Shown here piece by piece: positions 48,273 to 48,420 of a stretch of 64,000 nucleotides of DNA. The stretch is from contig NZ_JABFNK010000003.1 in the NCBI RefSeq assembly GCF_020386975.1, positions 1 through 64,000 on the forward strand. Direction: 5' to 3'. The notes beneath the pieces were generated by a model. It was not told the DNA's origin. It saw only the letters and a program-made list of their open reading frames with translations, and searched no databases. Every line of letters starts with the position of its first letter. Position 1 is the stretch's first letter. The DNA is from Thermococcus bergensis. Its GTDB lineage: Archaea > Methanobacteriota_B > Thermococci > Thermococcales > Thermococcaceae. A program made the translations under genes and the position numbers.

Positions 48273-48283
48273 TACTAAAAGTA
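48273..48283. promoter_or_regulatory. TrmB operator at the malE promoter
   Basis: TACTAAAAGTA fits the TrmB palindrome TACTnnnAGTA reported for the T. litoralis/P. furiosus trehalose/maltose promoter. It touches the downstream side of the malE TATA box, so bound TrmB would block TBP/TFB or polymerase. Confidence 0.85.
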
Positions 48284-48297
48284 TATATATTTTGCGG
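48282..48297 (-). promoter_or_regulatory. promoter of the malE operon
   Basis: Minus strand CGCAAAA (BRE) then TATATATA, about 40 bases upstream of the malE ATG. Confidence 0.75.
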
Positions 48298-48401
48298 ATG
48301 AAAGAGCTTAGAATTTTCGACAATTATGATGCTATGCACATCCTAAACGAAATGCTAGTTGCTGTTTTTATATGGAACCTATAGCTCAACTATAAGCATG
48401 C

Positions 48402-48420
48402 TATTTATTTACTTTAAGTA
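48402..48420 (+). promoter_or_regulatory. second TrmB-type operator beside possible fructokinase promoter
   Basis: TACTTTAAGTA at 48410-48420 is a second exact TACTnnnAGTA palindrome. A TATA-like TATTTATT stands directly before it on the plus strand, 60-75 bases before the fructokinase ATG. The arrangement mirrors the malE side. TATA choice is uncertain because other TATA-like runs are near. Confidence 0.55.

Follow-up and report, generated by a model that had tools for sequence, protein, structure and literature searches.

Gene order, operator sites and promoters at the malE-frk locus

The window analysed here is a stretch of 64,000 nucleotides from Thermococcus bergensis (contig NZ_JABFNK010000003.1). 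Its reverse strand carries an operon that runs from malE (46893-48242; PF01547), encoding the substrate-binding protein (SBP) of an ABC transporter, through the permease genes malF (45958-46866) and malG (45125-45961), the trehalose synthase gene treT (43882-45120; above the NF041139 cut-off), the regulator gene trmB (42833-43858) and the ATPase gene malK (41709-42836), to a fucose-isomerase-like gene of 500 amino acids (40160-41662; above the PF02952 cut-off). Divergent from malE, the forward strand carries frk (48479-49417; PF00294), which encodes a PfkB-family fructokinase of 312 amino acids; its best NCBIfam match, the fructokinase model NF006957, scored 196.7 bits, below the cut-off of 450. 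TrmB is a textbook archaeal repressor. The protein encoded here matched NF040851 with 650.7 bits (cut-off 600) and was identical over 338 residues to the crystallised Pyrococcus TrmB (3QPH), including the DNA-contact residues Y50 and D51, so the published operator motif applies to it directly.

Two exact matches to the TrmB operator palindrome, TACTNNNAGTA, were found in the 233-bp, AT-rich gap between malE and frk: O1, TACTAAAAGTA, at 48273-48283, at the 3' edge of the malE TATA; and O2, TACTTTAAGTA, at 48410-48420. Both had been reported in an initial annotation, one at the malE promoter and the other on the fructokinase side, and the 127-base spacing given there was within one base of the 126 bases that we measured between them (137 bp from start to start). 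The window contained four exact matches, against 0.61 expected, and the spacers of the remaining two were GC-rich. Over the whole genome, however, the motif was not enriched (28 sites, versus 48 for a reversed control pattern), so a single match means little, and it is the occurrence of a pair in one gap, together with its conservation, that matters. In Markov shuffles of the gap, the probability of at least one exact copy was about 0.008, and that of two about 1.7e-5.

Motif matches were also read in other stretches. The match at 61740-61750 of the window precedes a repeated IS transposase ORF (234 codons) by 28 bp, and TACTGGCAGTA/TACTGCCAGTA copies were found at the same distance from such an ORF in G000 (C1:46559, C1:266236, C2:55295, C2:71746 and C5:788363); these IS-linked matches are probably not TrmB operators. 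The other exact sites in the stretches read were located inside ORFs, upstream of the repeated IS transposase, or near unrelated genes (an OPT transporter, an RNase J-like protein and a protein kinase), and a regulon defined by the motif alone was rejected on this basis. The stretch with a second malK-like gene, the presumed MD operon, had no exact site.

Core promoters were located with a 14-position BRE/TATA model, built by expectation-maximisation on 209 upstream regions of this genome, which peaked 44-49 nt upstream of start codons. The malE box, CGCAAAATATATAT (48283-48296, reverse strand), scored 7.3 bits and has its start at -54 relative to the malE ATG. O1 begins 13 bp past the start of this box, on the TATA edge, and occupies the classical repressor position on the malE TATA. 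For frk, the model placed the box, AGTAAAACTTTAAG, at 48434-48447 (forward strand; 7.6 bits). Its start, 45 nt ahead of the frk ATG, falls in the genome's -44 to -49 peak, and the box belongs to a conserved block; the predicted transcription start of frk is near 48466-48471. O2 begins 24 bp ahead of the start of this box, and 13 bp separate the two, with no overlap. Thus, O1 lies on or downstream of a TATA, where a repressor is expected, but O2 does not do so relative to frk; for this reason, we did not file O2 as a repressor operator of frk. Its position is instead that of a TrmBL1-type site upstream of BRE/TATA. A TATA-like box beside O2 (about 48402-48411), previously proposed to face the fructokinase gene, was not among the best promoter matches, and was rejected as the frk promoter because the model places the core promoter at 48434-48447.

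Conservation of O2 and the position of frk among relatives

We looked for frk, TrmB, malE and the isomerase in 94 genomes of the family, and then read the regions; several of these genomes share ancestry, so the counts overstate the number of independent events. A frk gene divergent from an SBP operon of the window's type was found in 16 genomes. O2 was present in all 16, exact in 11 and with one mismatch in five, and was always located upstream of the frk box. Both sites were kept across genera, while the DNA between them fell to 43-50% identity between clades. By comparison, 22 frk loci that were not beside a TrmB operon lacked any exact site up to a distance of 330 bp, and any site with one mismatch up to 200 bp (exact O2 at linked versus unlinked loci, Fisher P 4e-6, not corrected for shared ancestry), and six TrmB-bearing genomes with an unlinked frk had no site at this gene. 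These sequence comparisons make it very probable that O2 is a genuine operator of TrmB; its occupancy by TrmB, and its effect on either gene, are what we infer.

A relic, or a site that TrmB leaves unoccupied in the cell, seems a very unlikely explanation of O2. Such a reading could draw on G080, in which both palindromes persist and no trmB was found, but the cassette of G080 is visibly decayed, and recent loss explains palindromes without trmB. Furthermore, O2 was retained across saturated divergence and is missing from the 22 frk promoters away from TrmB operons. The gap also had no match, with up to three mismatches, to TGM (TATCAC-N5-GTGATA; PMC4706686), the motif of the paralogue TrmBL1. 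The G080 locus (L102) comprises a frameshifted SBP gene, a truncated malF and malK remnants, with the palindromes, frk and the isomerase gene kept.

The two sites differed in their placement. Transporter-side sites were found 13-15 bp past the box start in nearly all loci examined; the treT-side sites of an alternative layout were about 47-52 bp past it, on the far side of the expected transcription start. The interval from O2 to the frk box was variable (17, 20, 24, 26, 35 and 127 bp), with no helical phasing. In L120, about 100 bp of extra DNA lies between O2 and the frk promoter, giving the 127-bp distance, and O2 and O1 are still 138 bp apart. Four loci without a frk neighbour also had an exact second site, at 110-148 bp from the transporter one, with a chance probability of about 0.4% per locus: three without any divergent gene (L136, L137 and L139), and L138, in which a divergent acetamidase/formamidase gene has the second site 22 bp before its box. 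The latter was the only parallel to the upstream position of O2. Six other transporter (TM) loci without frk had one exact site only.

These positions bear on the earlier proposal that TrmB represses frk through O2, with the same sugars inducing importer and kinase together, which we regard as unlikely. In 16 genomes, O2 was never found on or downstream of the frk TATA, although sites of this kind evolved at other promoters; 13 bp separate O2 from the frk box in the window; and, in published TrmBL1 templates, none bound upstream was repressed (PMC4706686). On the other hand, O2 and the frk box are only 6 bp apart in L104-L109, near enough to hinder TFB, and frk pairs with the isomerase of the TrmB-repressed operon. 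In other lineages, moreover, frk seems to be a target of TrmB: it is the last gene of a TrmB-controlled SBP operon or, in L115, part of a DUF2139-frk operon that has a repressor-type TrmB site to itself. Simple repression by O2 covering the frk TATA is the least likely arrangement. The DUF2139 protein (about 490 amino acids) is encoded directly upstream of frk in L115 (949-2424) and L117 (990-2453), and is a candidate carbohydrate enzyme of the TrmB regulon.

The isomerase-fructokinase pair and the origin of the cassette

Among the 94 genomes, frk was found in 56 and the gene for the 500-amino-acid fucose-isomerase-like protein in 57, with both present in 55 (Fisher P 2e-22, not corrected for ancestry). 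All 48 pairs located on one contig were divergent. In 22 of these the two genes were adjacent, with 46-88 bp between them, and in the other 26 they were separated by a cassette, which contained trmB in 25 cases; the exception was the decayed cassette of G080. In the window, the isomerase gene and frk mark the outer edges of the TrmB/ABC cassette. This pattern suggests that the two enzymes form a core unit, between whose genes the TrmB/ABC cassette was inserted. A minimal form was seen in L097 (G009; 4635-6613), with the isomerase gene and trmB on one strand, frk divergent and no ABC genes; its gap had no exact palindrome, and its TrmB scores below the curated cut-off.

The isomerase and Frk are candidate paired enzymes. 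The ATP-dependent fructokinase of T. litoralis, a fructose-specific ribokinase-family kinase of the same archaeal family, makes fructose-6-phosphate, according to the citation of Qu 2004 in PMC4412284. By analogy, a putative route from aldose to fructose to fructose-6-phosphate is a reasonable inference. Our literature search on this pairing found no paper naming both enzymes. The pairing suggests why a fructokinase adjoins a trehalose/maltose importer, points to a possible ATP-dependent route from aldose to fructose-6-phosphate, and gives a reason for the control of frk together with the operon. A functional tie between frk and the TrmB cassette, in line with the link suggested earlier, is supported as real by this pairing and by the presence of frk inside TrmB-controlled operons in other lineages.

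The window copy of the locus seems to be composite. Between about 39.5 and 48.55 kb, the window sequence was 99-100% identical to G077, compared with about 90% on the frk side. The gap and both operators matched G077, whereas frk agreed with G081 almost base for base from about 48.52 kb on. The switch in identity suggests that the mal operon and both operators arrived recently as one block, with a junction within the first approximately 70 bases of frk. An assembly chimera is the alternative, given the 3.9% contamination estimated for G000. No match was found in plasmid records.

Putative role of O2 and comparison with known systems

The malE-frk gap may be a two-operator TrmB control region in which O2 serves mainly as a helper operator of the transporter promoter; this is the reading we tentatively prefer, with slightly more weight given to an auxiliary role in the operon than to direct control of frk. 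Without inducer, TrmB on O1 would cover the malE TATA and block the operon from malE to the isomerase gene, a type of repression already established by published work on the identical protein and motif. TrmB would also bind O2, whose main selected role would be to raise the local TrmB occupancy or to cooperate with O1. From its place just upstream of the frk core promoter, O2 might in addition tune frk from outside the preinitiation complex, and not by covering the frk TATA. This preference rests on the second sites at the four frk-free transporter loci, on the lack of a site at unlinked frk in the six TrmB-bearing genomes, on L120, where the distance between operators is kept while the frk box moves away, and on the retention of O2 in every genome of this layout amid strongly diverged gap DNA, with a TrmB identical to the crystallised form. 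The single-sited TM loci indicate that a helper is not universal, and that O2 does associate with frk. The initial annotation was very probably right that O2 is an operator, but control of frk through it is not established, given its position upstream of the box, the frk-free second sites and the site-less unlinked frk genes.

DNA looping between the sites had also been suggested. The distance between O1 and O2 was 137-140 bp in 14 of the 16 loci; however, syntenic intergenic gaps surrounding the locus, used as a control against three relatives, changed in length by no more than 3 bp in 5/8, 9/13 and 5/8 cases. The spacing of the pair was no better conserved than this, so it offers no support for looping, and we withdrew the inference. 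Looping is possible in principle, but TrmB is reported as a dimer (PMC4158304), which counts against bridging of O1 and O2 under the helper reading.

Another explanation is a divergent switch of dual sign, with malE repressed at O1 and frk activated from O2, in the manner of TrmBL1/Tgr. This paralogue belongs to the same protein family and follows a position rule: activation from sites upstream of BRE/TATA, and repression from those downstream (PMC4706686). Among its templates, all nine with downstream sites were repressed, and of three with upstream sites two were activated and one was unaffected; one divergent region has been proposed to be under TrmBL1 control both ways (PMC4706686). The upstream position of O2 in 16/16 genomes agrees with this rule. 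We nevertheless consider such a switch rather unlikely: the review of TrmB presents it solely as a repressor (PMC4158304), the variable interval between O2 and the frk box shows no helical phasing, and frk already has a good core promoter (7.6 bits, versus a median of 4.8). Moreover, the isomerase partner sits in the repressed operon, so opposite regulation would make little sense. A fuller version, in which a two-signed TrmB came with an ABC/TrmB cassette inserted in an ancestral divergent isomerase-frk pair (aldose to fructose to fructose-6-phosphate), appears more doubtful still. The pairing speaks for joint induction of frk and the operon, and is at odds with the activation expected from the position rule, which makes the sign of TrmB action on frk informative.

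TrmB, its motif and O1 are already known (PMC4158304). The TM operons of Thermococcus litoralis and Pyrococcus furiosus share the gene order malE-malF-malG-treT-trmB-malK, an identical TrmB and the same palindrome at the malE BRE/TATA (PMC4158304). In the text available to us, this review describes the malE site only and does not mention O2, although an earlier report, for example in Lee 2003 or Qu 2004, is possible; the second palindrome by a divergent frk is a feature of the window. Genome-wide binding of TrmB has not been mapped because the trmB segment was lost from P. furiosus cultures (PMC4706686). TrmBL1/Tgr differs from TrmB in its operator, and TrmB, unlike this paralogue, is not reported as an activator. 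A second operator that is conserved upstream of a divergent promoter offers a clean test of whether TrmB takes its sign from position, as TrmBL1 does, or works through paired operators.
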